The notes under the pieces were generated by a model. It was given only the letters and a program-made list of their open reading frames with translations, was not told the origin of the DNA and ran no database searches. Positions 306 to 23,820 of a DNA stretch of 46,452 nt are shown piece after piece. The DNA is taken from NCBI GenBank assembly GCA_900317925.1, contig ONIQ01000016.1, forward strand, positions 1 to 46,452, written 5' to 3'. Source of the DNA: an uncultured Bacteroidales bacterium (GTDB taxonomy: Bacteria; Bacteroidota; Bacteroidia; Bacteroidales; UBA932). Position 1 is the stretch's first letter, and each line of letters begins with the position of its first letter. A program made the position numbers and the translations under genes.

Positions 306-1313
306 CTAACATGCAGGCTTATATTCCTTTGTGTATTCGGCGTCTCGTTTTATAACGGAGAACATTCTGTGAACGAGCTTTGCTCGAAGCACATTTAGGA
401 TACACATAATGTGCTTACCTTCTTTGAGTTTGCGTTCGTAGTAGTCCTTATATTCCCCGGCTTTCATGCGTGTTGCCACGTTCACTGCGCTCATGTGTAG
501 TAGAGCCTTCATGGTTTGATTTGCTCGTTTGGATATTTTGGCCTTTGACCGAACTGACGTTCCGGAGTCGTACTTGTATGGCGTGAGTCCGGCGAAGCTG
601 CAGAACTGCCGTGCGTTCTGGAAGCGTGTGAAGCCACCGGTGACGGCAATCATATTGATGGCGATGCGCTCCCCAACGCCGTCGATGCTTACAAGAAGAT
701 CCTTTTGGCGAGTCAATACCGGGTCAGCTTCAATAAGCGCTTCTATCTCGGCATCAATAGCTGCGATCTGCTCGTCAATGGATTTGATGACCTTCTTCCA
801 TCGGCTGTTCTTGTGTTTGAAGTCGCCAGGAGCCATATACTTCTTCTGGTCAGTGAGTTGAGACTGATATCTTTTCCTGTCGATAAGAAGGAACTCGCGG
901 TCTGCAAGGAGGCTCTTCATTGAGACCAGTGCCGCATCAGGGATAGCGTAGCGTTCGGCCTTATCACTGTACCTGAAAGCATATTCGGCGATTCTGGCCG
1001 CGTCAATGGCATCATTCTTACCACGGGTGAGGCCCATAGAGTTCTTGATGCGGGTGGGGTCGTCCATCCAGAGGAAGATGTCCAGTTCCTGACAGGCTAC
1101 GGTCAGAGGATAGATATATCGTCCAGTGTACTCGGCGCAGACGAGGACATCCTCAAATGACGCTCCAAGCACTTTCAATGCTGCTTTGAAGGCCTTCTTG
1201 AGTGCCTTCACATCATTGGGACACTCTTCTTCGCGGACAATCTCAAGACCGCTACGGTAGCAAAGATTACACTTTTCTTTGCTGATGTCGATGCCGACAT
1301 GGATTTTTTTCAT
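306..1313 (-). CDS. IS110-family DEDD transposase/recombinase
   Basis: A 335-residue transposase of normal length for IS110 elements. The N-terminal RuvC-like DEDD domain shows D9 (GIDISKE), E61 (CAEYTG), and D101 and D104 (GKNDAIDAARIAEYA). The C-terminal transposase-20 domain has the DGVGERIA helix-hairpin segment near 211 and the AGLTPYKYDSG motif, whose S250 matches the catalytic serine of this family. IS110 enzymes recombine DNA guided by a bridge RNA made from the noncoding end of the element (established for IS621-type members). The frame is intact from ATG (1311-1313) to TAG (306-308), so the element may be active. No terminal inverted repeats are evident, as expected for IS110. Copy number and exact ends are unknown. 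Confidence 0.93.
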   Translation of the reverse strand: MKKIHVGIDISKEKCNLCYRSGLEIVREEECPNDVKALKKAFKAALKVLGASFEDVLVCAEYTGRYIYPLTVACQELDIFLWMDDPTRIKNSMGLTRGKNDAIDAARIAEYAFRYSDKAERYAIPDAALVSMKSLLADREFLLIDRKRYQSQLTDQKKYMAPGDFKHKNSRWKKVIKSIDEQIAAIDAEIEALIEADPVLTRQKDLLVSIDGVGERIAINMIAVTGGFTRFQNARQFCSFAGLTPYKYDSGTSVRSKAKISKRANQTMKALLHMSAVNVATRMKAGEYKDYYERKLKEGKHIMCILNVLRAKLVHRMFSVIKRDAEYTKEYKPAC

Positions 1314-1412
1314 AACTTGCGTTGCTTTTTTAGCGGACAGTGGGCCGTCGATCCTTCACCTACAAACCTTATTCGTACTAAGGCAATATTCTTATTCAGG
1401 TCCTGGATCAAC

Positions 1413-1479
1413 GGGCCGGGCGGGGCACAAAATATACACGGGTCTTACCCATTTGCCAAAATTGAGAACCGCCCGGCTC
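1413..1479 (-). ncRNA. candidate IS110 bridge-RNA stem in the transposase leader
   Basis: Upstream of the transposase start, a perfect 9-bp GC-rich stem (1415-1423 with 1469-1477, extendable by a wobble and a GC pair) encloses a 45-base loop. In IS110-group elements the bridge RNA comes from the noncoding segment 5' of the recombinase gene, so this is the expected position. The fold and its assignment are inference: I could not identify donor and target guide loops or the element's end. Confidence 0.35.
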
Positions 1480-1497
1480 CATTGTCCTTTGTTAAAC

Positions 1498-1528
1498 TTT
1501 CTTTATCGGCATAAATTTACTACTTTTG
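1498..1528 (+). promoter_or_regulatory. Bacteroidota-type promoter for the sulfatase gene
   Basis: TACTTTTG at 1521-1528 matches the -7 consensus TAnnTTTG. TTTC at 1498-1501 is an acceptable -33 element with 19 bases between. Transcription would start near 1535, giving a short leader before the TTG start at 1573. Confidence 0.6.
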
Positions 1529-1572
1529 TCGTACAAACCTTGGAGCAGAAAACTACGCTGCAAATCTAAGGT

Positions 1573-3240
1573 TTGAAACCCAACTCTTTCCTGAAATATT
1601 CCCTGGGGCTGGCTTTTGCCGCCACCGGCTTCCAGCGTTCCGACAATCGTCCCAACATCATTTTCTTCCTGGCAGATGATTTTGGATGGACCGATACCCA
1701 GGTAGCCTTCGGTCCGGAGGTCTATCCCCAGAACGAGCGGCATCATACGCCCCAGTTTGTGCAGATGGCATCGGAGGGCGCCATCTTCACCCAGGCCTAT
1801 GCCTGCCCGCTGTCCTCCCCCACCCGTTCAAGCATCCTGACCGGCGTCCACAGTGCCTGTACCCATATCACCAATCCGCTGGGCAGCCTCCGGGGCGCAG
1901 AAACGGCCTGCAGGACCCCGGACGATTCGCCATGGGCTACCGTAGACTCGCTCGCGGCCGGTTGCCTGGACACACCGCACTGGGCCCTGAACGGAGTCAA
2001 CCCGGACCTTCCCGACAGCCTCAACATCGAAGACAGCTTTTATGCCACTCCGTATGTACGCCTGCTGCGCGATGCCGGCTACTTTACCATCCACGTAGGA
2101 AAGGCACACTGGGCTACGGCCGGCACACCGGGGTGCTCGCCCTACAACATGGGCTTTATCGTCAATATTGCCGGGGGCGTAGTGGAATTCTCCAAATGCG
2201 GATATCGGCCCGAGGACAACTACGGCAACAAGAAAGATGGTCGAGGCGTGCCCTTTACCCCGCACAACCTGATGGAGTACTATGGCACGCAGACGCACAT
2301 TACCCAGGCCCTCACCCGCGAAGCCTTGAAGACCCTGGACTATCCCATCCGGCAAAAAAAGCCCTTCTACCTCTTCCTGTCGCACTATGCCGTTCATACC
2401 CCCATCCAAGACGACCCGCGCTTCTACCAAAAATACCTGGATGCCGGCATGGACGAGGGACAGGCCCGTTTCGCTTCCATGGTGGAAGGGGTCGATGTCT
2501 CACTGGGCGAAATCCGCGCCTACCTGAAAGAGAAAGGCATCGAGCGGAATACCGTCCTCATCGTGATGGGCGACAATGGCGGCAATTCCGAGAACAAGAG
2601 CAAAGGCGGGATCCTGCATACCCAGAACAAGCCGCTCCGCGAAGGAAAGGCATCGTGCTATGAAGGCGGCATCCGCGTTCCGATGCTCGTCTGCTGGAAG
2701 GGTCGGGTGGCACCCGGTACCCGGCTGAATACGCCGGTCACCTGTGAAGACCTTTTCCCCACCCTCCTCCACTTGGGCGGCGTCCGCCGCTATTCCACCG
2801 TGCAGCAGGTGGACGGCCAGGACCTCTTCGATCTCATGACAAAGGGATCACAACTGGCTGCCAGACAAACGTTCGCCTCGCAGGAAGAAGCCAATCAATT
2901 TGTCATTCCCGCTTCGGTTTCGGGCGTTGATCCGGACCGATGCATCATCTCGCACTACCCGCACCAGTGGAAGAGTTACGTGCTGGATGATATCGACTAC
3001 CTCTCCGCCATTCACCGCGGCGACTGGAAACTGGTTTATCGCATGCGCACCGGGGCGCTGGAACTGTACAACCTGAAAGAAGATATCGGGGAGCAGACCG
3101 ACGTTGCCGCCGCGCACCCCGATATCGTTCGTTCACTCGCTACAGAATTGTCGGACCGCCTTCGTGGCTGGAACGCGCAGTTGCCCGTCATCCGATCAAC
3201 ACAGACCTGCGTTCCCTGGCCCGATGAGGTCCTCCGCTAA
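1573..3240 (+). CDS. S1-family sulfatase, serine-type, probably exported
   Basis: A 555-residue sulfatase that should hydrolyse sulfate esters, most likely from host or dietary glycans, in the periplasm. The alkaline-phosphatase-like fold starts with the metal-binding ADD of FFLADDFGW (D35, D36). The maturation signature is S81-S-P-T-R85 followed by SSILTG. The residue to be converted to formylglycine is therefore serine, which needs an anaerobic radical-SAM maturase (anSME) rather than aerobic FGE. VGKAHW (near 176) and GDNGG (near 335) are further family motifs. The start is TTG at 1573, since an in-frame stop lies just upstream. Residues 8-20 form a short hydrophobic stretch that looks like a signal peptide. 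The stop TAA overlaps the convergent gcvPB stop. The specific substrate cannot be told from the sequence. Confidence 0.9.
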   Translation: MKPNSFLKYSLGLAFAATGFQRSDNRPNIIFFLADDFGWTDTQVAFGPEVYPQNERHHTPQFVQMASEGAIFTQAYACPLSSPTRSSILTGVHSACTHITNPLGSLRGAETACRTPDDSPWATVDSLAAGCLDTPHWALNGVNPDLPDSLNIEDSFYATPYVRLLRDAGYFTIHVGKAHWATAGTPGCSPYNMGFIVNIAGGVVEFSKCGYRPEDNYGNKKDGRGVPFTPHNLMEYYGTQTHITQALTREALKTLDYPIRQKKPFYLFLSHYAVHTPIQDDPRFYQKYLDAGMDEGQARFASMVEGVDVSLGEIRAYLKEKGIERNTVLIVMGDNGGNSENKSKGGILHTQNKPLREGKASCYEGGIRVPMLVCWKGRVAPGTRLNTPVTCEDLFPTLLHLGGVRRYSTVQQVDGQDLFDLMTKGSQLAARQTFASQEEANQFVIPASVSGVDPDRCIISHYPHQWKSYVLDDIDYLSAIHRGDWKLVYRMRTGALELYNLKEDIGEQTDVAAAHPDIVRSLATELSDRLRGWNAQLPVIRSTQTCVPWPDEVLR

Positions 3241-4712
3241 GCCGACGCATCGCCGAATTTGAGAATCGGCTGGCGAGCCGCCCGCGTCTCATCGGGACGG
3301 CGAACCGGCGTCGTGTGCGGAGCTTCCTGCAGGATCGTAGGATCCTGGGCTGCCTCGGCCGCAATCTTGTGCATGACCTCGATAAAGGCGTCCATCGTCT
3401 CTTTCGACTCCGTTTCCGTGGGCTCAATCATGATGGCCTGGTGGAACAGGAGCGGGAAATAGATGGTGGGCGCATGGAAACCGAAGTCCAGCAACCGTTT
3501 GGCAACATCCAGCGTCGTGGCGCCGTGCACCTCGTCGTGCGCGCCGTCGTTGATGAGGCCGTCGAAGACGAATTCGTGCTTGCACACCGTGGGGATGGGC
3601 AGCTTGTAGGCATCTTTCAGGCTCTCCTTGATATAGTTGGCACCCAGCACCGACAGTTTGCCGGCCAGCTTGATGTTCTCCTTTCCAAGGGCAAGGATGT
3701 AGGCATAGGCCCGGAGGATAATCCCGAAATTGCCCAGGAATCCGGACACCTGACCGGCCGTCTTCTCGGACGCACCCACCACCTGGAAGGTACCATCCGC
3801 CTGACGGACCACCTTCGGAACGGGGATGATCTCTGCCAGACGGGCCGCCACACCCACCGGACCGCTGCCGGGACCGCCTCCGCCATGCGGCGTAGAGAAG
3901 GTCTTGTGCAGGTTCAGGTGCATGATGTCAAAGCCCATGTCTCCCGGACGGACCACGCCCAGCATCGGGTTCATATTGGCCCCGTCGTAATAGAGCAGGC
4001 CGCCGCAGGCGTGTACCAGCGAGGCGATCTCCACAATCTCCTTCTCGAAGAGACCGAGGGTGTTCGGGTTGGTCATCATGATGCCGGCGATGGTATCGTC
4101 CAGCAGGGGTTTCAGGTCGTTCACATCCACCAGACCTTCCGGCGTGGATTTGACCACCACCACCTCCAGGCCGCAAACGGCCGCACTCGCGGGATTGGTA
4201 CCGTGGGCGCTGTCCGGGACGATGACGCGCGTGCGCTTGACATCGCCGCGCAGCAGGTGGTACTGCCGCATGATCATCAGACCGGTCAGTTCACCGTGCG
4301 CACCCGCACAGGGGTTGAAGGTAAAGAGGGACATGCCCGTAATGGCCGCCAGGGCCTTGTTCATCTCGTAATATACCTCCAGGGCGCCCTGGACCGAGCA
4401 GGCGGGCTGCAGCGGATGCAGGCGCTGGAAACCGGGCATGGCGGCGATTTCTTCGTTGATCTTGGGGTTGTACTTCATGGTACAGCTGCCCAGCGGATAG
4501 AAACCGGTGTCCACACCGAAGTTCATCTGCGAGAGATTGGTATAATGGCGCACCACATCCACCTCCGACACTTGCGGCAAGGCGGCAGGGGCGCTGCGAC
4601 GAAGCCCGGCAGGAAGCGTATCGGCCCCCTTGTTCCAAGGATTCGCCGGAAGCGAATAGCCGGTCCTTCCCTCCCGGGAAAGCTCGAATACCAGTTTATC
4701 GTAATATTTCAT
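3237..4712 (-). CDS. gcvPB: glycine dehydrogenase (decarboxylating) subunit 2, P-protein beta
   Basis: The 491-residue PLP-binding half of the split P-protein. With GcvPA it decarboxylates glycine and transfers the aminomethyl group to the lipoyl arm of GcvH. The PLP lysine is K270 in NLHKTFSTPHGGGGPG, followed by the Gly-rich loop typical of the family. PDSAHGTNPASA (near 166) and TNPNTLGLFE (near 214) are also diagnostic. It is the last gene of gcvT-gcvH-gcvPA-gcvPB, with its ATG only 2 bases after the gcvPA stop. Its TAG (3237-3239) overlaps the TAA of the convergent sulfatase gene, leaving no room for an intergenic terminator. Length and motifs are normal. Confidence 0.97.
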   Translation of the reverse strand: MKYYDKLVFELSREGRTGYSLPANPWNKGADTLPAGLRRSAPAALPQVSEVDVVRHYTNLSQMNFGVDTGFYPLGSCTMKYNPKINEEIAAMPGFQRLHPLQPACSVQGALEVYYEMNKALAAITGMSLFTFNPCAGAHGELTGLMIMRQYHLLRGDVKRTRVIVPDSAHGTNPASAAVCGLEVVVVKSTPEGLVDVNDLKPLLDDTIAGIMMTNPNTLGLFEKEIVEIASLVHACGGLLYYDGANMNPMLGVVRPGDMGFDIMHLNLHKTFSTPHGGGGPGSGPVGVAARLAEIIPVPKVVRQADGTFQVVGASEKTAGQVSGFLGNFGIILRAYAYILALGKENIKLAGKLSVLGANYIKESLKDAYKLPIPTVCKHEFVFDGLINDGAHDEVHGATTLDVAKRLLDFGFHAPTIYFPLLFHQAIMIEPTETESKETMDAFIEVMHKIAAEAAQDPTILQEAPHTTPVRRPDETRAARQPILKFGDASA

Positions 4713-4714
4713 GG

Positions 4715-6040
4715 CTATACCTCCTTCACAGCTTCCACCAGGGCGTCGATTTCAGCCTTGGTGCGTTTTTCGGTTACACAGAAACTCACATAGCCTTCTT
4801 CCGTCTGCAAGGCGGCAAAGAAGCCTTTCTTCAACAGTTTGGCCTGCAGGGTGGCAGGATCCACCAGCGGTTTCAGGACAAACTCCTTCAAGAAGGGTTT
4901 GTCAAACACTTTCTGGAACTTTCCCGTCGCCAGCAAGGCGTCGTACAGGTAATGCGCACCGGCATAAGACAGGTCGTTCACCTGCTGCATGCCCTTGGGA
5001 CCCATCAGCGACAGGTACACCGTGGCCCAAAGCGCCATGAGGCTCTCGTTGGAGCAGATGTTGCTGGTGGCCTTCTCGCGGCGGATATGCTGCTCGCGCG
5101 CCTGCAGGGTAAGCACGAAGGCCCGCTTTCCGTCACGGTCTTCCGTCTGGCCCACGATACGGCCGGGCAGTTTGCGCAGATACTCGGTCTTGCAGGCCAT
5201 AAAGCCCACGTACGGGCCGCCGTAATTCAGCGGAATGCCCAGGGACTGGCCGTCGCCCACGGCAATGTCGGCCCCCCATTCGGCAGGGCTTTTCACCACT
5301 GCCAGGGCACTGGGGTCGCAATACTGGACCAACACGGCTTTCTGCTCGTGCAGGGCATCGGCAAAACCGGTCAGGTCCTCTACGATCCCATAACGGTTCA
5401 CGGACGGGACGATCGCACCCGCCACATCACCCGCGGCAAGGGCTTCCTGCAAATCGGCCAGAGAGGTCTGTCCGCTTTCGGCGGAAAGGTATCCCAGGTC
5501 GATTCCGGCATATTTCGCATAGGTTTCCACCACATGCAACACATTCGGCAGCAAGGCTTTGGAAAGCAGGACGCGATTCTTCTTCTTGGCACTGGCCACG
5601 GCCATCTTCATGGCTTCCGCCGCAGCGGTAGGGCCGTCGTACATGGAGGCGTTGCTCACATCCAATCCCGTCAGGGTGCAGATCATGCTCTGATACTCGA
5701 AAATGTACCGGAGCGTTCCCTGGGAGATCTCGCACTGATAGGGCGTATAAGCCGTCAGGAACTCGGAACGGGAGGTAAGATAAGGAATGACAGAGGGCGT
5801 ATAATGGTCATAGGCCCCCGCCCCCACAAAGACCTTCAGGGGCACATCCTTCGCATCCAGTGAAGCGAACCAGTCGCGCACTTCCTGTTCGGACAGGGCC
5901 GAAGGAAGGTCGTACTCCCCTTTGTATTTAACACCGTCAGGCACATCGGAGTAGAGGTCGTCCAGCGACCCCACACCAATCCGCTGAAGCATCTGACGGA
6001 TATCCTCCTCCGTATGGGGGAAATAGGCAAATCCGGCCAT
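4715..6040 (-). CDS. gcvPA: glycine dehydrogenase (decarboxylating) subunit 1, P-protein alpha
   Basis: A 441-residue N-terminal half of the split P-protein, partner of GcvPB in the cytoplasmic glycine cleavage system. The start MAGFAYFPHTEEDIRQML and the segments GAGAYDHYTPSVIPYL, YQCEISQGTLR (about 140) and SNASMYDGPTAAAEA are strongly conserved in this subunit. The fold is aspartate-aminotransferase-like, but the PLP lysine sits in the partner subunit. It lies 6 bases after gcvH and 2 bases before gcvPB, so the genes are clearly co-transcribed. Separate P-protein subunits are usual in many bacteria including Bacteroidales. Confidence 0.96.
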   Translation of the reverse strand: MAGFAYFPHTEEDIRQMLQRIGVGSLDDLYSDVPDGVKYKGEYDLPSALSEQEVRDWFASLDAKDVPLKVFVGAGAYDHYTPSVIPYLTSRSEFLTAYTPYQCEISQGTLRYIFEYQSMICTLTGLDVSNASMYDGPTAAAEAMKMAVASAKKKNRVLLSKALLPNVLHVVETYAKYAGIDLGYLSAESGQTSLADLQEALAAGDVAGAIVPSVNRYGIVEDLTGFADALHEQKAVLVQYCDPSALAVVKSPAEWGADIAVGDGQSLGIPLNYGGPYVGFMACKTEYLRKLPGRIVGQTEDRDGKRAFVLTLQAREQHIRREKATSNICSNESLMALWATVYLSLMGPKGMQQVNDLSYAGAHYLYDALLATGKFQKVFDKPFLKEFVLKPLVDPATLQAKLLKKGFFAALQTEEGYVSFCVTEKRTKAEIDALVEAVKEV

Positions 6041-6046
6041 AGGTGC

Positions 6047-6427
6047 TTATTCGTTGATGGTTGCTTGATAGGCAGCCGCATCCAGCAGGGCGTCCACCTC
6101 GGCGGGATCGCTCATTTCCACCTTGATCAGCCAGTTGGCATAGGCATCCTCGTTCACCAGTTCGGGGCTATCCTCCAGGGCGGCGTTTACTGCCACCACC
6201 TTGCCGGAAACCGGGGCGTAGAGTTCGCTGGAAGCCTTTACGCTCTCCAGGGCGCCGAATTCCTCACCGGCCTGCACCTCATCTCCCTCTTCGGGCAGAT
6301 CTACATAGGTAATGTCCCCCATTTCGGCCTGTGCGAAATCCGAAACACCGATGACGGCAATGCCGCCTTCCACCTTGACCCATTCGTGCGATTCGCTATA
6401 ACGCAAACCTTCAAGTACTTTGCTCAT
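6047..6427 (-). CDS. gcvH: glycine cleavage system H protein (lipoyl carrier)
   Basis: A 126-residue lipoyl-domain protein that shuttles the aminomethyl group and electrons between P, T and L proteins. The lipoylated residue is K64 in the canonical GALESVKASSELYAPVSG context. The opening SESHEWVKVEGG and the segment ADAYANWLIKVE-like tail (NEDAYANWLIKVEMSDP) are standard for GcvH. ATG at 6425-6427 follows the gcvT stop by 27 AT-rich bases. No lpd (L-protein) gene lies in the operon; it must be elsewhere in the genome. Confidence 0.97.
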   Translation of the reverse strand: MSKVLEGLRYSESHEWVKVEGGIAVIGVSDFAQAEMGDITYVDLPEEGDEVQAGEEFGALESVKASSELYAPVSGKVVAVNAALEDSPELVNEDAYANWLIKVEMSDPAEVDALLDAAAYQATINE

Positions 6428-6454
6428 AATGATTGATATTTAATTATTTATTAT

Positions 6455-7540
6455 TTACTTTTTATAATTCGTCTGATAGAAACGCTTCTTGACCACCTTT
6501 CCGGGGAAGACTTTCTTGCGGATGCGGATCCACAGCGGCGTGTCCAGCGCGCTGACTTCCGTCTTCACCAGGGCAAAGCAGATGCTCTTGTCCAGCGAGA
6601 TGGAATGATAGCCCGTGGTGACCACGCCCACTTCCGTACCGTCTTCCAGTTCCACGGGATAACCGGCACGCGGGATGGCCTTGTCTTCGATTTCGATACC
6701 CACCAGTTTCTGCTTCGTTCCCTCCGCCTTCTGGGCAGCCAGGGCGTCGCGGCCGATGAAGTCTTTGTCCAGCTTGCAGAACATGCCCAGGCCGGCTTCC
6801 ACCGGGGAAATCTCGGCGCTGAGCTCATCGCCATACAGGGGCAGGCCCGCCTCGAAGCGCAGGGTGTCGCGGCAACCCAGGCCGCAGGGCTCCACGCCCG
6901 CATCCAACAACTTCTGCCACAGGGCCTTCGTCTCGGCGATGCCGGAATAAACCTCGAAGCCATCCTCTCCCGTATAGCCCGTACGGCTCACGATTAGGTC
7001 GCCTTCCCGATAATAGGTATAAAAGGTAAGGTCCGCCGCCTTGGGGAAGCCCAGTTTCACCAGGGTCTCCTCCGCTTTCGGACCCTGGACGGCAATCTGG
7101 CCCCAGGCATCGCTCTGATTATCCACTTTCACATCGAATCCGGCCTTCTGCTCCAGCATCCACGCGTAATCCTTGTCGATGTTGGCCGCGTTGACCACCA
7201 GCAGGTAGTGGTTTTCCGCCGCCTCACGATAGACCAGCAGGTCGTCCACCACCCCACCGTCGGGATAGCACATCATGCCGTACAGGATCTTACCGGGCTC
7301 CATCCCGGCTACCTGATTCGTAAAGATATGGTTTACAAAAGCTTCTGCATCAGGGCCGGAAACGAAGATTTCGCCCATGTGCGACACATCGAACATTCCC
7401 ACATTCTGCCGGACGGCCAGGTGTTCCTGGGTGATACCGGCATACTGGATGGGCATGTCGAACCCGGCAAAGGGGCTCATTTTGGCTCCAAGGGCCACGT
7501 GGCTGTCATGCAGACAGGTAACTTTCAGATTTTCTTCCAT
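6455..7540 (-). CDS. gcvT: glycine cleavage system T protein, aminomethyltransferase
   Basis: A 361-residue tetrahydrofolate-dependent aminomethyltransferase that releases ammonia and forms 5,10-methylene-THF from the aminomethyl-loaded H protein. The N-terminal MSPFAGFDMPIQYAGI, MFDVSHMGEI, the central RTGYTGEDGFEVY and GCRDTLRFEAGLPLYGDEL match the folate-binding GcvT family. It is the first gene of the gcv operon and lies 42 bases after the SUMF1-fold gene. I see no good -7/-33 pair and no room for a long riboswitch in that gap, so it may be read through from upstream or use a weak promoter in the AT-rich gap. Confidence 0.97.
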   Translation of the reverse strand: MEENLKVTCLHDSHVALGAKMSPFAGFDMPIQYAGITQEHLAVRQNVGMFDVSHMGEIFVSGPDAEAFVNHIFTNQVAGMEPGKILYGMMCYPDGGVVDDLLVYREAAENHYLLVVNAANIDKDYAWMLEQKAGFDVKVDNQSDAWGQIAVQGPKAEETLVKLGFPKAADLTFYTYYREGDLIVSRTGYTGEDGFEVYSGIAETKALWQKLLDAGVEPCGLGCRDTLRFEAGLPLYGDELSAEISPVEAGLGMFCKLDKDFIGRDALAAQKAEGTKQKLVGIEIEDKAIPRAGYPVELEDGTEVGVVTTGYHSISLDKSICFALVKTEVSALDTPLWIRIRKKVFPGKVVKKRFYQTNYKK

Positions 7541-7582
7541 TTATTTATATTATAATCAATTATTTGCGTTTTCTTATCTAAA

Positions 7583-8935
7583 TTAAAGCGCAAGACGCAG
7601 GCCAAAGGTGGACTTGACACTTGTCGCGGGTATTTTGGAGCGGTTGCTGACCCGGCAGGCATCCCAGAGACTGGCCGCACTGCCACCCCGCATCACGCGC
7701 CATTCATCGTGGACCTCTTCTTTGCCATAGAGATGGAAACCATTGCGGCACCATTCCCAGGCATTTCCGCTCATATCGTACAAGCCCAGTCCATTCGGCC
7801 GAAGACTCTTGACCGGCTTCATCCTGGCAGGCTTTTCGCTGCCATTGGGCGTATAGACGGCCACTTCGCCCAGCACCGTAGAGCCGGCATAACGAAGGTC
7901 TCCGCCCTTCTTTCCACCCCTCGCGGCATACTCCCATTCTTCCTCTTCCGGAAGACGGAACTTCCTGCCGGTCAAGGCATTCAGTTTCATGATGAACTCC
8001 TGGGCCCCGTACCACGACACATTCCCCACCGGTATTTCCGGCGTGCGGGGATTGTTCCCATAGGGCAGGCTCCCCATGACGGCCTGCCACAGGCCGACGG
8101 TCACTTCCGTCTCGCCCAGGGCAAAATCCGAAACAATCACGTCATGAGCGGGTTTCTCATCCTCCTTGGCATAATCGAAGGCCGTCTGAGAAGGCGTGGC
8201 ACCCATGGTGAATGCACCGCCCTCGATGGCGATCATCTTGAAGGAAACACCGTTAACCGTAAGGGTTTCTCCCGGTTTCATGGCCTGATAATCAATGGCT
8301 TCCCGAATAGGCGGCTTGTTTTCTACGAAGGTGGAATACACCTCTGAAGGGATGGCTTTCCCGGTATTCCAAGTCAGGCGGAAACTGATATCGCCCGCCT
8401 TGGTATAGGAAGCTATCGGCGCCCGTTCCGTTTCGGTACGGACCACCGCCCCTATCTTTTCATCGTCCCACCGGGAGGTCAGTTCGCGGATACCTTTGAC
8501 CGGATGGATGCCTCCATCGCCCGACCAACCCTTCCGCACGGCATATTCCCATTGGTCCTCCCATGCCACCTGGACGGGCAGGCCGGTCCATTTGGCCACC
8601 TTGGCGGCGAACTTCACGGCTTCGTCATACGAAATCTTACCGTCCTTTCCGGTGACGGCCTTCCACAGTTCGGGTGAAACCGGCTGCGCCATAATGGCAT
8701 AGCCGGGAATAACGACCTGGTGGATTTCCTCTGCCCCGGTGAGTTTCCGGCCATCGGGCACGCAGCCCATGGAAAAGGTTCCCGGCTGCATTTCCACCAT
8801 CTCCACCGGGATGCCTTTTACGTCCAGAACGGGCTGGAACGGTGCCTCGGCCGTCTGATTCTTCCGGCCGCACGAGAACGTTATCAGAAGCAGGATACCG
8901 ACAAACAGTACGGTAACGCGATGCACAATCTTCAT
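7583..8935 (-). CDS. SUMF1/FGE-fold lipoprotein with a duplicated domain
   Basis: A 450-residue protein with two formylglycine-generating-enzyme-like (PF03781) halves. The first, degenerate half (about residues 40-190) contains PVEMVEMQPGTFSMG and WEDQWEYAV. The second (about 235-450) has GGAFTMGA, VSWYGAQEFI, FRLPEEEEWEYAARGG, MSGNAWEWCRNG and RVMRGGS followed by CRVSNR. True aerobic FGE has a pair of copper-binding cysteines after RGGS; only one Cys is present here, so sulfatase maturation is unlikely. It more likely has a structural or binding role at the cell envelope. A lipobox (LLITFSC) gives a predicted lipidated Cys22 from the chosen ATG at 8933-8935. The upstream in-frame TTG at 8947 is less likely given the promoter position. 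The gene sits between an SPFH gene and gcvT. Confidence 0.85.
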   Translation of the reverse strand: MKIVHRVTVLFVGILLLITFSCGRKNQTAEAPFQPVLDVKGIPVEMVEMQPGTFSMGCVPDGRKLTGAEEIHQVVIPGYAIMAQPVSPELWKAVTGKDGKISYDEAVKFAAKVAKWTGLPVQVAWEDQWEYAVRKGWSGDGGIHPVKGIRELTSRWDDEKIGAVVRTETERAPIASYTKAGDISFRLTWNTGKAIPSEVYSTFVENKPPIREAIDYQAMKPGETLTVNGVSFKMIAIEGGAFTMGATPSQTAFDYAKEDEKPAHDVIVSDFALGETEVTVGLWQAVMGSLPYGNNPRTPEIPVGNVSWYGAQEFIMKLNALTGRKFRLPEEEEWEYAARGGKKGGDLRYAGSTVLGEVAVYTPNGSEKPARMKPVKSLRPNGLGLYDMSGNAWEWCRNGFHLYGKEEVHDEWRVMRGGSAASLWDACRVSNRSKIPATSVKSTFGLRLAL

Positions 8936-16697: not shown

Positions 16698-17264
16698 ATG
16701 TTTAAATTTTTCTCCCTAATCGTCGCGTGCCTGACCTTGTCCATCAGCCTTTCCGCGCAGAACAACACGACTGCCGAAACCATAGAACATACCCGCGCGG
16801 CCGTAGCGTCCGCCCAGCAGACGCACGAAAAGCACGCTAAGGCGGCCAAACAGACCGTCTCCGAATCCAACGAGATCATTGACAATGCGAAGGATCGGGC
16901 CAAGAAGGCGAAAGAAGCCGCCAAAACGCTGAAAGCCTCCATCCGGGAGCAGGAATCCGAACTGCATGTGCAGAAACAGAGCCTGAAGGTCCAGAAGAAA
17001 TCCATGAAGATGGACGGCACGGTTTCCGCCCTGGAGAAACAGGAACTGAGCGCCCTTCAGCGAGACATCAACCAGCGGACGAAGAAGATCAAGAATGACA
17101 AGGCGATGCTCAAGCAGCACAACGCCCAGATTCGCTCCGCCCAAAAATCCATAACCGAGGCCAAGCGCAAAGCGGCCGCGGCCAAGAAGACTGCCAAAGC
17201 CAGCCAGTCCCGGCTGAAAGAGGCCCAGAAAGCCCACAAGGCCATGGAGAAAATGGCCAAATGA
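16698..17264 (+). CDS. secreted Lys/Ala-rich coiled-coil protein
   Basis: A 188-residue protein with a signal peptide (MFKFFSLIVACLTLSISLSAQ, predicted cut after about residue 20). An almost uninterrupted charged helix runs from about residue 25 to 188, rich in Lys, Ala, Gln and Glu with heptad-like spacing. There are no cysteines after the signal and no recognisable domain. It should be an elongated periplasmic protein; the function is unknown. Its stop overlaps the start of the MetH-like gene in an ATGA arrangement, so the two are translated together, although one is exported and the other cytoplasmic. Confidence 0.8.
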   Translation: MFKFFSLIVACLTLSISLSAQNNTTAETIEHTRAAVASAQQTHEKHAKAAKQTVSESNEIIDNAKDRAKKAKEAAKTLKASIREQESELHVQKQSLKVQKKSMKMDGTVSALEKQELSALQRDINQRTKKIKNDKAMLKQHNAQIRSAQKSITEAKRKAAAAKKTAKASQSRLKEAQKAHKAMEKMAK

Positions 17265-19477
17265 TCGACCAGAAGTTACTCGGTAAGAAAATATGGGTGC
17301 TGGACGGGGCGATGGATACCATGCTCCTTGCCGGAGGCGTGGAAGATCCCGATCTCGAACGCGTAAACCTGACGCACCCCGCCGTCGTCGCCGACGTGTA
17401 CCGGGAGTACATCGAGGCGGGAGCAGATATCATCCGGAGCAATACCTTCGGAGCCGATCCCCTTACCCAGAAAGATTTCGGCCTTGAGAAACTGGCCGCA
17501 GACATGACCCGTGCCGGCATCAGCATCGCCCGGGAAGCCGCCGATGCCGCCGACTCCTACGCCGGACGGCCCATTTTTGTCGCCGGCACCATCGGCCCTA
17601 CCAGCCTGTCCCTCGGCCTGTCCGCCCAACTCGGAAGCCAGGACGGGGAGGATGCCGTCTTCCAAGCCTTCCAGACCCAGATCCGCCTGCTCTCGGAAGG
17701 CGGAGCGGATCTCTTCCATTTTTCCGCTTTCCGCGATTTGCGCAATGCGCAACTGGCGCTTCAAGCCTGGCAGGAAACGGCTCCCGGCACCCCCGCCATG
17801 CTGACCTTTTTCATCAGCGGGAAATCCGGTGAAATCCTTTCCGGACACACGCTGAAAGACTGTTATGAAGCCGTCCAGGATTTCCCACTGACCGGCTTCG
17901 GGATCGAGTCCATCGAAGAGGGCAACGTCATTCTGGCCCTTGTCAAAGACATGAACGCATGGTGCCGTTTTCCGATTATCTGTCTGCCGGGCGCCGGTCT
18001 CCCCGGCGACGCCTCCTCCCATGACCAGAAACCCATCGTCCTAGCCTGCGATTTACGAAAAGCCACCCGCCGCGGCCTGCTGAACTTTGCCGGCGGCGGA
18101 ATGGGGACCGCTTCGGAGCATCTCTGCGCCATCGCCACGGCCCTCCAGAACGAGAAAATCCGCAAGATCCAAATCGGACAATGGCAGAAGAAACGGCCCC
18201 GCATGGCCATCGAGCCCGTTTTGGGCGATCTTCGTCAAACCCCGCTCCTGGTGGCCGACGCCCTCCGCAAGGCCGGCTTCGACATCCCGTCCAGAACCGG
18301 GAAAAAGGATCCCGACCTCTTCTGCATGGGCAGTCTCACCCTCCCCGGCCTGCTCCAGGCCGAAGCCTTCTGCCAGCAGCTGGCCGCCCGGAATGCCGAA
18401 GCGCCCCTGCTGCTCTGGGGCAATGCATCCTCCCCCAGCCATTGCCTCCACGTGCTGAACGCCATCTATCCGCACTGCTACTATGCCAAGGATATTCCTG
18501 CGCTGACAGACAGCGCGTTACGCTGTGCCACCGACCGGAACGCTTTTGAATCCGAGGAACAGGCTCGGTATCAGGAACTCCTGGATCAGAAAGCCCGTTC
18601 CCTCAACAACCAGAACGTCCCGGCAAATCCCCAGTTCAAGAACCGCACCTACATCCTCACGGACAAGCGTTTCCTGCACAGCAAGCCCACCTTCTCCCTG
18701 TCCATCGGGAAACTGGCCGATTGTATTTCCTGGGAGGAATTCCTCTCCGATTGCGGGTGCCCGCGGACCCGGAGCCGCAGCAAGGTCAAACGCGCCGCCC
18801 GCCAGCAGACCCTCCAGGACGGCAAGGATCTGCTCCAGAAAATCATTGAGACCGATGCCGTCCGCATGCGGGTTTCCGTCCGCGTGGTGGATGCCTGCAA
18901 CGACGACGACTGCATCTGCTTTACCGACCGGTACAAAAACGATGAAGCCGTCCGCCTCCCCATGCTGCGGCAAGAAGAGGATTCCTCGCTGGTTACGGGA
19001 CTGCGCGGCCGTTTTTCGATCGCCGATTTCGTTCCGGACAAGCTTTTTGGGAAGACGGGGCCCATCGGTTTCTTTGGCGTAACCCTGGAACTGGACCGGG
19101 AGGCCCTTCCACAAGGGGATGAAACGGAAGCCGCCCGTCTCCCGTTCATCTGGAAAGGTTTGCTGCAAGCCGCCGTCCGACGCATCCGGGACACCTACGC
19201 TTCCATCCTAAAAGAGCGGGCCGGAAGAGGCTTCAGCATCGCCCTGCCCCTGGTGGGCGAAGACGCCTGTCCCGACGTGAGCCTCCGGCGCGATATCCTG
19301 GAGCACCTTCCCGCTTCCGATGCCCTGGGCGTTACCCTGGACAAGGATTTCATGCCCACCCCCGCCGATACGGTGTTCGGGCTGATTTTGTTCCACCATC
19401 ATGCCTGCTGCCCGGCCCTCGGGGAAATCAGCCCGGAGCAATGGGCCGCTTATCGGAAAAAGCGGGGCCTTTCTTGA
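17261..19477 (+). CDS. degenerate MetH-like protein (Hcy + B12-like + activation domains, ligands lost)
   Basis: A 738-residue protein that follows cobalamin-dependent methionine synthase in order but lacks the pterin-binding domain and Cap. Residues 1-300 are a homocysteine-methyltransferase barrel (WVLDGAMDTML, RSNTFGA, VAGTIGPT, PGAGLP). The zinc cysteines are gone: GGCCGT is G278-G-G-M-G-T283, and the TGFGIE segment has no Cys. Residues 315-460 resemble the B12 domain (GSLTLPGLLQAE, YYAKD), but DxHxxG is D323-L-R-Q-T-P328, so the cobalt-ligand histidine is missing. Residues about 475-738 resemble the SAM-dependent activation domain (ISWEEF, IADFVPDKLFGKTGPIGFFGV, AYRKKRGLS), with the RxxxGYPACP motif reduced to GEDACP. 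The frame is intact, so it is a maintained paralogue rather than debris. The catalytic function is probably lost; a regulatory or binding role is inference. Confidence 0.8.
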   Translation: MIDQKLLGKKIWVLDGAMDTMLLAGGVEDPDLERVNLTHPAVVADVYREYIEAGADIIRSNTFGADPLTQKDFGLEKLAADMTRAGISIAREAADAADSYAGRPIFVAGTIGPTSLSLGLSAQLGSQDGEDAVFQAFQTQIRLLSEGGADLFHFSAFRDLRNAQLALQAWQETAPGTPAMLTFFISGKSGEILSGHTLKDCYEAVQDFPLTGFGIESIEEGNVILALVKDMNAWCRFPIICLPGAGLPGDASSHDQKPIVLACDLRKATRRGLLNFAGGGMGTASEHLCAIATALQNEKIRKIQIGQWQKKRPRMAIEPVLGDLRQTPLLVADALRKAGFDIPSRTGKKDPDLFCMGSLTLPGLLQAEAFCQQLAARNAEAPLLLWGNASSPSHCLHVLNAIYPHCYYAKDIPALTDSALRCATDRNAFESEEQARYQELLDQKARSLNNQNVPANPQFKNRTYILTDKRFLHSKPTFSLSIGKLADCISWEEFLSDCGCPRTRSRSKVKRAARQQTLQDGKDLLQKIIETDAVRMRVSVRVVDACNDDDCICFTDRYKNDEAVRLPMLRQEEDSSLVTGLRGRFSIADFVPDKLFGKTGPIGFFGVTLELDREALPQGDETEAARLPFIWKGLLQAAVRRIRDTYASILKERAGRGFSIALPLVGEDACPDVSLRRDILEHLPASDALGVTLDKDFMPTPADTVFGLILFHHHACCPALGEISPEQWAAYRKKRGLS

Positions 19478-19541: not shown

Positions 19542-20144
19542 ATGGATAAATTACAGGAACTGACAGACAAACTGTTTAACGAGGGTTTGTCAAAAGGCAA
19601 AGCCGAGGGTGAAGCCCTCCTCGCCAAGGCCAGGAAAGAAGCGGAAGAAATCATCGCCCATGCCAACAAAGAGGCAGAGACCATCGTTGAAAAGGCCCGC
19701 CGTGAAGCCGAAGACCTTGCCACCAAGGTAAACGGTGACCTGCGCATGGCCGGTGCCCAGACGCTTCAGGCCACCCGGAAGGACATCGAAGACCTGATCA
19801 TCACGAAAATCACGGATACCCAGGTCAAAGAGGCCCTCTCGGCTCCTGCATTCATCAAAGAGATCATCGAAGCCGTTGCCCGGAACTTCAACGCCGGACA
19901 GGCCGGAGACCTGGCCCTGGTGCTCCCCGAGAGCCTGCGCAACCAGCTGGAGCCCTTCGTCAAGAACGAACTGGGGAAGATCCTGGGCAGCAACGTAGAA
20001 GCCTCCTTCTCGAAGAAAATCGCCGGCGGCTTCACCATCGGTCCCAAAGACGGCAGTTATTTTATCAGCCTCACGGATGAAACCTTCCGCGCGTTGATCG
20101 GCGAGTATCTCCGTCCCACCACCAAGAAGCTCCTGTTCGGATAA
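19542..20144 (+). CDS. atpE: V-type ATP synthase subunit E
   Basis: A 200-residue peripheral-stalk subunit. The N-terminal half (1-75) is a long charged helix (KAEGEALLAKARKEAEEII), and the C-terminal half (about 95-200) is the globular head-binding domain ending in RPTTKKLLFG. It connects the catalytic A3B3 head to the membrane part of a V-type rotary ATPase. It is the first gene of the operon, with its own promoter. The TAA overlaps the next ATG by one base. Confidence 0.9.
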   Translation: MDKLQELTDKLFNEGLSKGKAEGEALLAKARKEAEEIIAHANKEAETIVEKARREAEDLATKVNGDLRMAGAQTLQATRKDIEDLIITKITDTQVKEALSAPAFIKEIIEAVARNFNAGQAGDLALVLPESLRNQLEPFVKNELGKILGSNVEASFSKKIAGGFTIGPKDGSYFISLTDETFRALIGEYLRPTTKKLLFG

Positions 20145-20743
20145 TGAGCAATTTCGAATACATCATCGCCAGTCTCCCCTACCTGACGCCCGGCTACCAT
20201 TATGCCGAGGGGAAGGGGTTCCAGGATGTGCTCGGTGAAATCCGACGGGACCTTTCCGCCCGGGACAATGCCACGCTGGACTTCCTGTTGAAGGGGTTCG
20301 ACGCCGATTCGCTGGACGCGCCGTTCTACGAAGAGGCCCTGCACGGCGGCAACCGTTTCCTGCGGGAGTATTTCCGGTTCGACCTGAACCTGCGCAACGC
20401 CAAGGTCCGTTACCTGAACCGGCAACTGGCCCGCGACGCCGAGCAGGATGTCCTGGGAATCGACGGAGGCGAATTCGAGGAGGCTTCGAAAGTGGACGCC
20501 GTGCTGCAAGGGACCGACCTCATCGCCCGTGAAAAGGGGCTGGACGACCTGACCTGGGCCAAGGTGGATTCCCTTTCCACCTTCCATTATTTCGACCTCA
20601 CCGCCGTCCTGGCCTATGTGGCCAAGCTCCACATTGCCGACCGCTGGCTGGCCCTGGACGAAGCCCGCGGACGGGAACTGTTCCGCAAGCTCGTAGATGA
20701 GGTGCGCGGCACCTTCAAGGGCGTACATTACAATGAACAATAA
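20144..20743 (+). CDS. DUF2764 protein, V-ATPase subunit C-like
   Basis: A 199-residue helical protein of the DUF2764 family, which sits in V-type ATPase operons of Bacteroidota and some other bacteria at the place of subunit C. The opening NFEYIIASLPYLTPG is typical, and the rest is rich in helical, acidic segments. By position it should be the central-stalk-to-ring connector or an assembly factor; this is inference from gene order. It starts one base into the preceding stop (TAATG) and ends 13 bases before the subunit A start. Confidence 0.85.
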   Translation: MSNFEYIIASLPYLTPGYHYAEGKGFQDVLGEIRRDLSARDNATLDFLLKGFDADSLDAPFYEEALHGGNRFLREYFRFDLNLRNAKVRYLNRQLARDAEQDVLGIDGGEFEEASKVDAVLQGTDLIAREKGLDDLTWAKVDSLSTFHYFDLTAVLAYVAKLHIADRWLALDEARGRELFRKLVDEVRGTFKGVHYNEQ

Positions 20744-20756
20744 AAATAAAGGATAT

Positions 20757-22511
20757 ATGAAAACCACTGGTATCGTAACCGGAATCGTTTCCAACCTCGT
20801 GACCGTCCGTGTAGACGGCCCGGTTGCCGAAAACGAGATCTGCTACATCACCCTGGACGACACCGCCCTCATGGCGGAGGTCATCAAGGTGACGGGCAAG
20901 AACGCATCGGTGCAGGTATTCGAAAGCACGCGCGGCCTGAAGAACGGCGACAAAGTCGAGTTCCAGGGCCGGATGCTGGAGGCTACCCTGGGACCCGGCC
21001 TGCTGACCGGCGTCTATGACGGCCTCCTGAACGACCTCACCACCATGAAGGATGTCTTCCTCAAGCGCGGCGAATACACCGACCCGCTGGACCACACCAA
21101 GCTCTGGGACTTCACGCCCATCGCCGCCCCCGGCGACAAGGTCGTGGCCGCAGACTGGCTGGGCGAAGTCAAGGAAGGCTGGCTGCCTCACAAAATCATG
21201 GTCCCTTTCTCCTTCAAGGGAGAATTTACCGTCAAATCCGTCGCCCCTGCCGGACAATACACCATCGACAAGGAAGTGGCCGTCCTGGTGAACGAAGAGG
21301 GAGAAGAAGTCCCTGTCTGCATGTGGCAGAAATGGCCTGTCAAGGTGGCCGTCAAGGGCTATAAGGAGAAACCGCGCCCCAGCCGCATCATGGAAACGGG
21401 CGTGCGCGTCATCGACACCCTCAACCCCATCGCGGAAGGCGGCACGGGCTTCATTCCCGGACCGTTCGGCTGCGGCAAGACCGTGCTCCAGCACGCCATC
21501 GCCAAGCAGGGCGATGCCGAAGTCATCGTGATGGCGGCCTGCGGCGAGCGTGCCAACGAGGTGGTGGAAATCTTCACCGAGTTCCCGGAACTGATCGACC
21601 CGCATACCGGCCGTCACCTGATGGAACGGACCACCATCATTTGCAACACCTCCAACATGCCGGTGGCGGCGCGTGAGGCATCGGTCTATACGGCCATGAC
21701 CATCTGCGAGTACTACCGGGCCATGGGTCTGAAGTGCCTGCTGCTGGCCGATTCCACTTCCCGCTGGGCCCAGGCGCTCCGTGAGATGAGTAACCGTATG
21801 GAAGAACTTCCGGGTGCGGATGCCTTCCCGGTGGACCTTTCCGCCATCATCTCCAATTTCTACGCCCGCGCGGGCATGGTGGTGCTGAACAATGGCCAGA
21901 CGGGTGCCGTCACCTTCATCGGAACGGTCTCCCCTGCCGGCGGTAACCTGAAGGAACCGGTGACCGAGAGCACCAAGAAGGCCGCCCGCTGTTTCTATGC
22001 CCTGGAGCAGAACCGCGCCGACCAGAAGCGCTACCCGGCCGTGAACCCCATCGATTCGTATTCCAAATACCTCGAGTACCCGGAAATCCAGGCCTACCTG
22101 GACGAGACGGTCGAGCCGGGCTGGACCAACAAGGTATCCCGCGCCAAAAACATCATCCGCCAGGGACGCGACGCCGCCGAACAGATCAACATCCTCGGTG
22201 ACGACGGCGTGCCGATGGCCTATCACGAGACCTTCTGGAAGTCCGAACTCGTGGACTTCGTCATCCTCCAGCAGGATGCCTTCGACCCCATCGACAGCCT
22301 CTGCCCGATGGAACGCCAGCAGTTTATGCTGGACCTGGTCCTGGACATCTGCGCGAAGGAATTCTCCTTCGAGAACTTCGAGGAATGCCGCAACTACTTC
22401 AAGGAAATGATCAACCTGCTCCGGCAGATGAACTATTCCGAATTCCACGGCGAATCCTTTGAAAAATATGTGAAAGAACTCAATAACCTCCTGGAAAGCA
22501 ATGGCAAATAA
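20757..22511 (+). CDS. atpA: V-type ATP synthase catalytic subunit A
   Basis: A 584-residue catalytic subunit that hydrolyses or makes ATP. The N-terminal beta-barrel starts TTGIVTGIVSNLVTVRVDG. The non-homologous insertion is at about 110-190. The Walker A loop is G235-P-F-G-C-G-K241-T242, and SNMPVAAREASVYT and the LADSTSRWAQALREMSNRMEE region follow. ATG at 20757 gives the family start; the frame is open further upstream to 20697 but only over the end of DUF2764. It overlaps subunit B by 11 bases. Confidence 0.97.
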   Translation: MKTTGIVTGIVSNLVTVRVDGPVAENEICYITLDDTALMAEVIKVTGKNASVQVFESTRGLKNGDKVEFQGRMLEATLGPGLLTGVYDGLLNDLTTMKDVFLKRGEYTDPLDHTKLWDFTPIAAPGDKVVAADWLGEVKEGWLPHKIMVPFSFKGEFTVKSVAPAGQYTIDKEVAVLVNEEGEEVPVCMWQKWPVKVAVKGYKEKPRPSRIMETGVRVIDTLNPIAEGGTGFIPGPFGCGKTVLQHAIAKQGDAEVIVMAACGERANEVVEIFTEFPELIDPHTGRHLMERTTIICNTSNMPVAAREASVYTAMTICEYYRAMGLKCLLLADSTSRWAQALREMSNRMEELPGADAFPVDLSAIISNFYARAGMVVLNNGQTGAVTFIGTVSPAGGNLKEPVTESTKKAARCFYALEQNRADQKRYPAVNPIDSYSKYLEYPEIQAYLDETVEPGWTNKVSRAKNIIRQGRDAAEQINILGDDGVPMAYHETFWKSELVDFVILQQDAFDPIDSLCPMERQQFMLDLVLDICAKEFSFENFEECRNYFKEMINLLRQMNYSEFHGESFEKYVKELNNLLESNGK

Positions 22512-23820
22512 AGTATATCAAAGAGTCTATACGCAGCTGGAAGCCATCACGAAAGCCACCGTGGCCCTTCGCGCGACGGGTGTTTCGAACGATGAGCTGG
22601 CCACCGTGCACGGCCGTCTGGCCCAGGTGGTGAAGACCAAGGGCGACACCGTCACCCTGCAGGTATTCTCCGGAACGGAGGGCATCCCCACCAATGCGGA
22701 AGTCGCCTTCCTGGGCGCTCCGCCTACCTTAAAAGTCAGCGATCAGCTCTCCGGCCGTTTCTTCGACGCTTACGGCCACCCCATCGACGGCGGGCCCGAG
22801 GTGGAAGGGGAAGAACGTCAGATCGGCGGTCCTTCCGTGAACCCGTACAAACGCCGTCAGCCCTCGCAGCTGATCCCGACGGGCATCGCGGGCATCGACC
22901 TGAACAACACCATCGTCTCCGGACAGAAGATTCCGTTCTTCGCCGACCCGGACCAGCCGTATAACGCGGTCATGGCCGATGTGGCCCTGCGCGCCGATGT
23001 GGACAAGATCATCCTGGGCGGCATGGGTCTTTCGAACGACGACTACCTGGCCTTCCGCCACGCCTTCGAAGGTGCCGGCGCCCTGGAGAAGATCATCAGT
23101 TTCGTGAACACGACGGAAGAGCCGCCGGTGGAGCGTCTGCTCATCCCGGACATGGCCCTGACCGCCGCCGAATATTTTGCCGTTGACAAGAACGAGAAGG
23201 TGCTCGTCCTGCTGACGGACATGACCCTGTACGCCGATGCCCTGTCCATCGTTTCCAACCGTATGGACCAGATCCCGTCCAAGGATTCCATGCCGGGCTC
23301 GCTGTATTCCGACCTCGCCAAGATTTATGAAAAGGCCGTGCAGCTGCCCTCCGGCGGCTCCATCACCATCATCGCGGTGACCACCCTGAACGATGGCGAT
23401 ATCACGCACGCCATCCCGGACAATACCGGTTACATCACGGAAGGCCAGCTCTTCCTGCGGGCCGATGCGGATTCGGGCAAGGTCATCATCGACCCGTTCC
23501 GTTCCCTGTCCCGTCTGAAACAGCTGGTCCAGGGCAAGCAGACCCGCGACGACCACAGCCAGGTCATGAACGCCGGCGTACGGCTCTATGCCGACGCGCA
23601 GAACGCGAAGACCAAGCTGGAGAACGGTTTCGACCTGTCCGACTACGACCATCGCTGCCTCGCCTACGCGAAGGAGTATGCCACCCGGTTGCTCTCCATC
23701 GATGTAAACATCAAGATCGACGAGATGCTGGACACCGCGTGGGAGCTCTTCGCCAAGTACTTCTCGAAGGCCGAGACCGGTATCAAACAGACATTCATCG
23801 ATAAATACTGGAAAGGATAA
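22501..23820 (+). CDS. atpB: V-type ATP synthase regulatory subunit B
   Basis: A 439-residue non-catalytic nucleotide-site subunit that alternates with A in the head. It has the N-terminal barrel (KATVALRATGVSNDELATV), then NPYKRRQPSQLIPTGIAGID, LLTDMTLYADALSIVSNRMDQIPSKDSMPGSLYSDLAKIYEKA and the C-terminal helical domain. No P-loop is present, as expected for B. The start lies inside the end of the A gene (11-base overlap), and TAATG joins it to subunit D. Confidence 0.97.
   Translation: MANKVYQRVYTQLEAITKATVALRATGVSNDELATVHGRLAQVVKTKGDTVTLQVFSGTEGIPTNAEVAFLGAPPTLKVSDQLSGRFFDAYGHPIDGGPEVEGEERQIGGPSVNPYKRRQPSQLIPTGIAGIDLNNTIVSGQKIPFFADPDQPYNAVMADVALRADVDKIILGGMGLSNDDYLAFRHAFEGAGALEKIISFVNTTEEPPVERLLIPDMALTAAEYFAVDKNEKVLVLLTDMTLYADALSIVSNRMDQIPSKDSMPGSLYSDLAKIYEKAVQLPSGGSITIIAVTTLNDGDITHAIPDNTGYITEGQLFLRADADSGKVIIDPFRSLSRLKQLVQGKQTRDDHSQVMNAGVRLYADAQNAKTKLENGFDLSDYDHRCLAYAKEYATRLLSIDVNIKIDEMLDTAWELFAKYFSKAETGIKQTFIDKYWKG

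Follow-up and report, generated by a model that had tools for sequence, protein, structure and literature searches.

Cobalamin-dependent methionine synthase (MetH) is a textbook enzyme built of several modules, which shuttle among three active sites. The stretch of DNA analysed here (46,452 nucleotides; hereafter, the window) contains a forward-strand open reading frame at 17261–19477 that encodes a protein resembling MetH but devoid of its catalytic ligands. A sequence-only reading had noted these 738 open codons, a frame that is indeed present, and had proposed a pseudoenzyme kept for another role. The locus raises the question of whether this MetH look-alike is a decaying gene, a new enzyme, an accessory of true MetH or a protein doing other work.

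Modules and ligands of the look-alike

Two Pfam families were found in the 738-aa protein. S-methyl_trans (PF02574) covered residues 13–295 (E 5.1e-48), within a homocysteine-methyltransferase-like barrel at 17261–18160 (residues 1–300), and Met_synt_B12 (PF02965) covered residues 482–736 (E 1.2e-21), an activation-domain-like module at 18704–19468. Beyond these, no Pfam family was detected at E ≤ 1, including the pterin (PF00809), B12-binding and Cap (PF02607) families. The middle of the protein (18161–18610, residues 301–450) was identified as the cobalamin-binding Rossmann domain of MetH when the four look-alikes found were compared, profile against profile, with four MetH proteins of the genus (hhalign, 99.4%, E 5.6e-21). 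Sequence searches against solved MetH structures matched the barrel to 4ccz (E 8.1e-35) and 9ssp (E 1.3e-34), and residues 345–738, the C-terminal half, to 1k7y (E 9.5e-10). On these sequence comparisons, the descent of the barrel, Rossmann and activation modules from an ancestor shared with MetH can be regarded as secure. The metH model TIGR02082 requires 1010.85 bits and gave 208.9, so the protein did not qualify as an equivalog. An AlphaFold model on the window protein and its closest relative had a mean pLDDT of 36 and a pTM of 0.29.

The earlier description of a protein that is MetH-like from end to end except for a missing pterin domain was therefore right about the three modules and about the pterin domain, but incomplete, since the Cap (B12-binding_2) domain has gone as well. 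When the window look-alike was aligned with 20 genus MetH proteins, its barrel ended directly at the first Rossmann strand: from residue 295 to residue 319 it had 25 residues, where MetH had 421–484. About 400 residues are gone, corresponding to the pterin and Cap domains, which occupy residues 338–575 and 634–707 in the true MetH of the window's genome. The junction (18146–18214, residues 296–318) was of equal length in all four look-alikes known to us, E/T-P following ATAL after 22 residues in each.

The same alignment was used to read the ligand columns, with zinc and AdoMet roles taken as in MetH. E216-S217 (17906–17911) replaced the Asn-Cys that holds the first zinc Cys, and G280-M281 (18098–18103) replaced the zinc Cys pair of GGCCGT, both of which were present in 20/20 genus MetH proteins. 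A barrel Glu that is likewise universal in these proteins, and that presumably contacts homocysteine, was S155. In the activation module, the degenerate AdoMet motif LPLVGEDACPD (19244–19276) took the place of (K/R/M)PAAGY...CPD: CPD was kept, LPLVGE stood where (K/R/M)PAAGY is expected, and the Tyr present in all 20 MetH proteins was lost. R325 (18233–18235) stood in the column of the DxHxxG His, present in 20/20 MetH proteins and described as the cobalt ligand in PMC10567725. The alignment thus agreed with the zinc, cobalt and activation-motif losses that had been read from the window sequence.

These losses were common to the four look-alikes. Their zinc Cys columns held S/G, G and M/L/A, their cobalt-ligand column held R or Q, and none retained the PAxGY motif; three Ser/Thr columns, which we take to form the B12 tail pocket, were also changed in all four. 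One of the proteins (from genome G291) carried Cys at columns 219 and 279, neighbouring the zinc columns, and a shifted metal site is conceivable there. It shared a Cys at column 242 and an Asp kept at column 490 with the look-alike of genome G014.

Orthologues, selection and probable common ancestry

A contig scan found one relative of the window look-alike, 88% identical, in the metagenome-assembled genome RUG14513 (L033). This contig and genome G087 of the genus sample are the same record or a copy and were counted as one look-alike. Among 400 genomes of the genus, at least four had full-length matches: the window's own genome (G000), G087, G014 (about 33% identity to the window protein, 32–33%) and G291 (31%). 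This count refers to matches listed to E of about 6e-66, with at most two candidates scored per genome, and more distant copies may exist. Scans at strict thresholds, in samples that overlap, yielded 2/398 genomes in the family (E ≤ 1e-85; G000 and G291), 2/393 in the order (E ≤ 1e-70; G000, and G253 with a true MetH) and 3/199 among relatives of G291 (E ≤ 1e-88; G291, G014 and G087). The distribution in these scans was therefore one genus and four genomes, with three well-separated sequences. Viral contigs gave 31 stretches that matched a pattern, none of them a relative of the look-alike. Contamination or a single assembly error was rejected, because separate assemblies carry this gene at an identical location. 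Orthologues retaining the Cys/His ligands would have pointed to a window copy that is merely decaying; all three other orthologues found lacked the ligands in the MetH columns.

Codon comparison of the window and G087 look-alikes gave dN 0.065 and dS 0.43, with dN/dS 0.150 (bootstrap 95% 0.114–0.195), rather than the value near 1 that would have refuted the sequence-only reading; the YN00 estimate was 0.09. By domain, the ratio was 0.096 in the barrel, 0.092 in the Rossmann domain and 0.272 (95% 0.19–0.40) in the activation module. The 738 codons contained no stop and no indel between the two genomes, and 189 of the 282 differences lay in third positions. By contrast, 500 neutral simulations with an equal number of changes produced 7 stops on average and at least 2 in every run. 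For the same genome pair, the V-ATPase E and B genes gave dN/dS 0.096 and 0.028. The G014 and G291 look-alikes gave 0.23 (NG86, dS 1.46), higher than their neighbours atpE (0.15) and atpA (0.07) and than the values for three true MetH pairs (0.07, 0.09 and 0.19). Judged from these sequences, the look-alike is under purifying selection, on these few pairs weaker than that on most true MetH proteins, with the tightest constraint in the barrel and Rossmann domains.

These data bear directly on the possibility that the gene is a slowly decaying leftover of metH, its frame still unbroken although the cell had found a substitute for the enzyme or could do without it. MetH loss seems to be common in the genus: the look-alike/MetH profile found no match at E ≤ 0.001 in 163 of the 400 genomes, many of which are incomplete, and MetH looked frameshifted, lying in two frames, in G173 (L134) and G212 (L136) and truncated in G190 (L137), through decay or assembly errors; it was truncated in G087 also. 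In addition, the look-alike evolves much faster than its neighbours, the window and G014 proteins being 33% identical versus 84% for V-ATPase A and 93% for V-ATPase B. The codon data contradict this reading, since the frames are intact and the ratios are 0.15 and 0.23 over dS values of 0.43 and 1.46. It also fits poorly with an ancestor that had probably lost the domains and ligands already (see below), and we consider decay improbable.

The four look-alikes formed one clade in the barrel tree (support 99/99) and in the tree of the B12 and activation domains (100/99), although the branches united in it are very long and long-branch attraction is possible. A V-ATPase E tree did not unite the four genomes, but their union was not rejected (p 0.24). 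Independent decay of two pairs of look-alikes was not favoured, given the equal junction and the clade support, long branches notwithstanding. The sequences suggest that the shared ancestor of the four was probably already without the domains and ligands.

Homology to an enzyme together with loss of catalytic residues, by which pseudoenzymes are recognized, was found in 4/4 sequences, and purifying selection was found as well. In its enzyme descent, predicted lack of catalysis and retention by selection, the look-alike resembles metabolic pseudoenzymes such as plant PDX1.2 (PMC6829848). Pseudoenzymes are an established kind of protein; searches of the open literature listed none derived from MetH.

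A probable remodelled metH in the place of metH

Upstream of the look-alike lies a gene for a coiled-coil protein (16698–17264, +, from an internal ATG), whose stop codon overlaps the start of the look-alike in an ATGA sequence (17261–17264); the arrangement is the same in G087. The suggestion that the gene is surrounded by intact promoters consequently fails on the 5' side. Given this overlap, the look-alike probably lacks a dedicated promoter immediately 5' of its start and would depend on one further upstream. The upstream genes of the other two genomes are a DUF819 protein gene that overlaps the look-alike (G014) and an acyltransferase gene 3 bases from it (G291).

On the 3' side, an AT-rich gap precedes the start of a V-type ATPase gene group (19542–23820, +) with E-subunit-like, DUF2764, A and B reading frames, in the same order in L034, L065 and L066. 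Subunits A and B were clear by Pfam, whereas the first frame was E-subunit-like only below the cut-off. In L065 (G087:C41, 12491–14795) the second V-ATPase frame and subunit A are each split over two frames with no N there, and the adjoining look-alike is intact.

The look-alike was located directly upstream of the V-ATPase genes in 4/4 genomes. Of 20 genus regions retrieved, 14 had a true metH upstream of these genes and in the same orientation, a count that is not a frequency since 10 of the regions had been picked for linkage. Inspection by eye placed metH and atpE on one contig in at least 10 of 27 genomes for which both places were listed, a lower bound because contigs are short, and the gene after metH was metF (PF02219) in 7/7 loci checked. 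Since true metH-metF adjoins the V-ATPase genes in the genus, the look-alike stands in a known place of metH from which metF has gone. It looks like a remodelled positional copy of metH, to judge from gene order and alignment. Remnants of metH near V-ATPase genes elsewhere were sought with tblastn (MetH and look-alike queries) at the atpE loci L080–L107, within up to 1.5 kb on each side, and none was found; three of the 28 loci (L084, L100 and L104) gave hits, all of them ends of a true linked metH.

A functional link to the V-ATPase was considered and not favoured. The adjacency can be inherited, because true metH occupies the same place in part of the genus. Two further arrangements were observed at V-ATPase loci. 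In G021 an insert (L117:6413–14894) separates metH-metF from the V-ATPase genes and encodes a protein kinase (PF00069), a protein with three AAA modules, a zinc-ribbon/FHA protein and a PP2C phosphatase. G083 has two V-ATPase E genes on different contigs (L116 and L082), only one of which was seen beside metH.

Compared with MetH (TIGR02082), the look-alike has a homologous barrel, Rossmann domain and activation module, ordered alike, and occupies the chromosomal place that metH takes in part of the genus; it differs in lacking the pterin and Cap domains and in its replaced zinc, cobalt and AdoMet residues. In split MetH the ligands are retained. MetH modules are likewise separated in split MetH, and the core methionine synthases MesA–MesD also have no folate-binding domain, but all of these are methionine synthases (PMC7857596). 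The core families were found via the MetE family; the look-alike has no MetE-type catalytic domain (PF01717) and matches only PF02574 and PF02965.

We consider it reasonably probable that the look-alike is a pseudoenzyme that was derived once from the metH of the genus metH-metF-V-ATPase locus and has been kept by selection for a role other than methionine synthesis. In the proposed course of events, metF would have disappeared from the locus, the metH copy would have shed its pterin and Cap domains in frame, and its zinc, cobalt and AdoMet residues would have been replaced. The resulting protein of barrel, Rossmann and activation modules would have been maintained by selection and inherited in at least two deep lineages. 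A maintained, ligand-less descendant of MetH, as proposed in the sequence-only reading, is borne out by three orthologues that also lack the ligands and by the dN/dS of 0.15. The case would illustrate how an enzyme can turn into a different protein without leaving its position in the chromosome.

Methionine synthesis in the host genomes and the possible role

Outside the window, on another contig, the window's genome encodes a complete MetH of 1132 aa with five Pfam domains, with metF adjoining. A genuine metH elsewhere in the genome, one of the points left for checking, is therefore present. The barrel tree placed this protein together with the unlinked MetH of G003 (support 100/97). In G087, where the look-alike is intact, the closest MetH relative (L141:4695–6095, −, G087:C102) is a 466-aa remnant that has kept a barrel with the zinc Cys residues and a partial pterin domain, and has no DGAMGT motif and no part of MetH beyond. 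The remnant groups with the MetH of the window's genome (95/87) on a long branch. MetF was not found in G087, and a separate corrinoid protein was. Neither MetH, MetE (PF01717), MetF nor a B12-binding domain was found in G014 (70% complete) or G291 (91%), where incompleteness could hide genes, most of all in G014. PF01717 gave nothing in any of the four look-alike genomes.

One proposal, in the direction of the sequence-only reading, was that the look-alike regulates or assists the cell's true MetH, or that it senses corrinoid or SAM. The complete MetH and MetF of the window's genome speak for it. As a general role, however, partnership with MetH or corrinoid sensing is unlikely, because the look-alike is kept in G014 and G291, in which no MetH, PF01717, MetF or B12-binding domain was found; it is also kept in G087 although the nearest MetH relative there is truncated. 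SAM sensing is unlikely because the AdoMet motif is lost in all four proteins. The cobalt-ligand and B12-tail-pocket columns are changed in all four as well, and no Rfam riboswitch reached the gathering score in eight sources, which yielded only a tRNA. Taken as a whole, this reading is the least probable of those considered.

The residues that the four look-alikes share bear on the remaining readings. Positions were called MetH-invariant when at least 95% of the 20 genus MetH proteins agreed. Of 245 such positions, 73 were kept in the four look-alikes, 16 had one shared other residue and 156 varied. The polar switches E59R, N66D, N216E and G252S were common to 4/4 look-alikes, as was C280G, whereas D15, N61, T62, Q70 and C241 were kept. 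Since the shared switches lie beside kept residues, these sequences hint at a barrel mouth that was altered and has since been maintained.

A new enzyme, in which the re-lined barrel performs another reaction without zinc, corrinoid or AdoMet, would account for such switches among kept residues and for the barrel and Rossmann domains being the most constrained parts. Yet the shared switches number only 10 among 128 MetH-invariant barrel positions, several of them conservative; the low-confidence AlphaFold model does not reveal whether they converge on a single pocket; and no genetic neighbour hints at a substrate. We regard this possibility as unlikely, and rank ahead of it a non-catalytic binding or scaffold protein, for and against which our judgement from sequence is evenly balanced. 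Methyl-transfer activity, in particular, is predicted to be absent. Binding or scaffold work would most likely proceed via the re-lined mouth of the barrel, where we assume from the MetH fold that E59R, N216E and C280G lie beside D15, N61 and T62. The conserved activation-domain stretches PMLRQE, ADFVP and CPDxSLR may offer an alternative surface, although the activation part of the G014 and G291 proteins scores under the Pfam cut-off.

Tentatively, and with rather low confidence, the four proteins may represent a new family: along a single lineage, a MetH would have given up its chemistry with folate, corrinoid, zinc and AdoMet, and the three modules left over would have acquired a ligand or reaction of their own, kept even by bacteria that seemingly no longer make methionine. 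A look-alike in cells apparently without methionine synthase would be a clean case of folds apart from their chemistry. For annotation, PF02574 together with PF02965 in such a genome does not indicate the ability to make methionine.

A corrinoid methyltransferase cluster was observed in G087 (L142, G087:C3:7000–16000, at 1212–8932). It encodes a URO-D-family protein (PF01208), a second protein that is alike by eye, a corrinoid protein (PF02310 and PF02607), a transporter-like protein and a 221-aa MetH-activation-like protein (PF02965) with a PGY motif. By eye, the cluster adjoins pectinase-like genes, and it looks like a system for the use of methyl groups from pectin.
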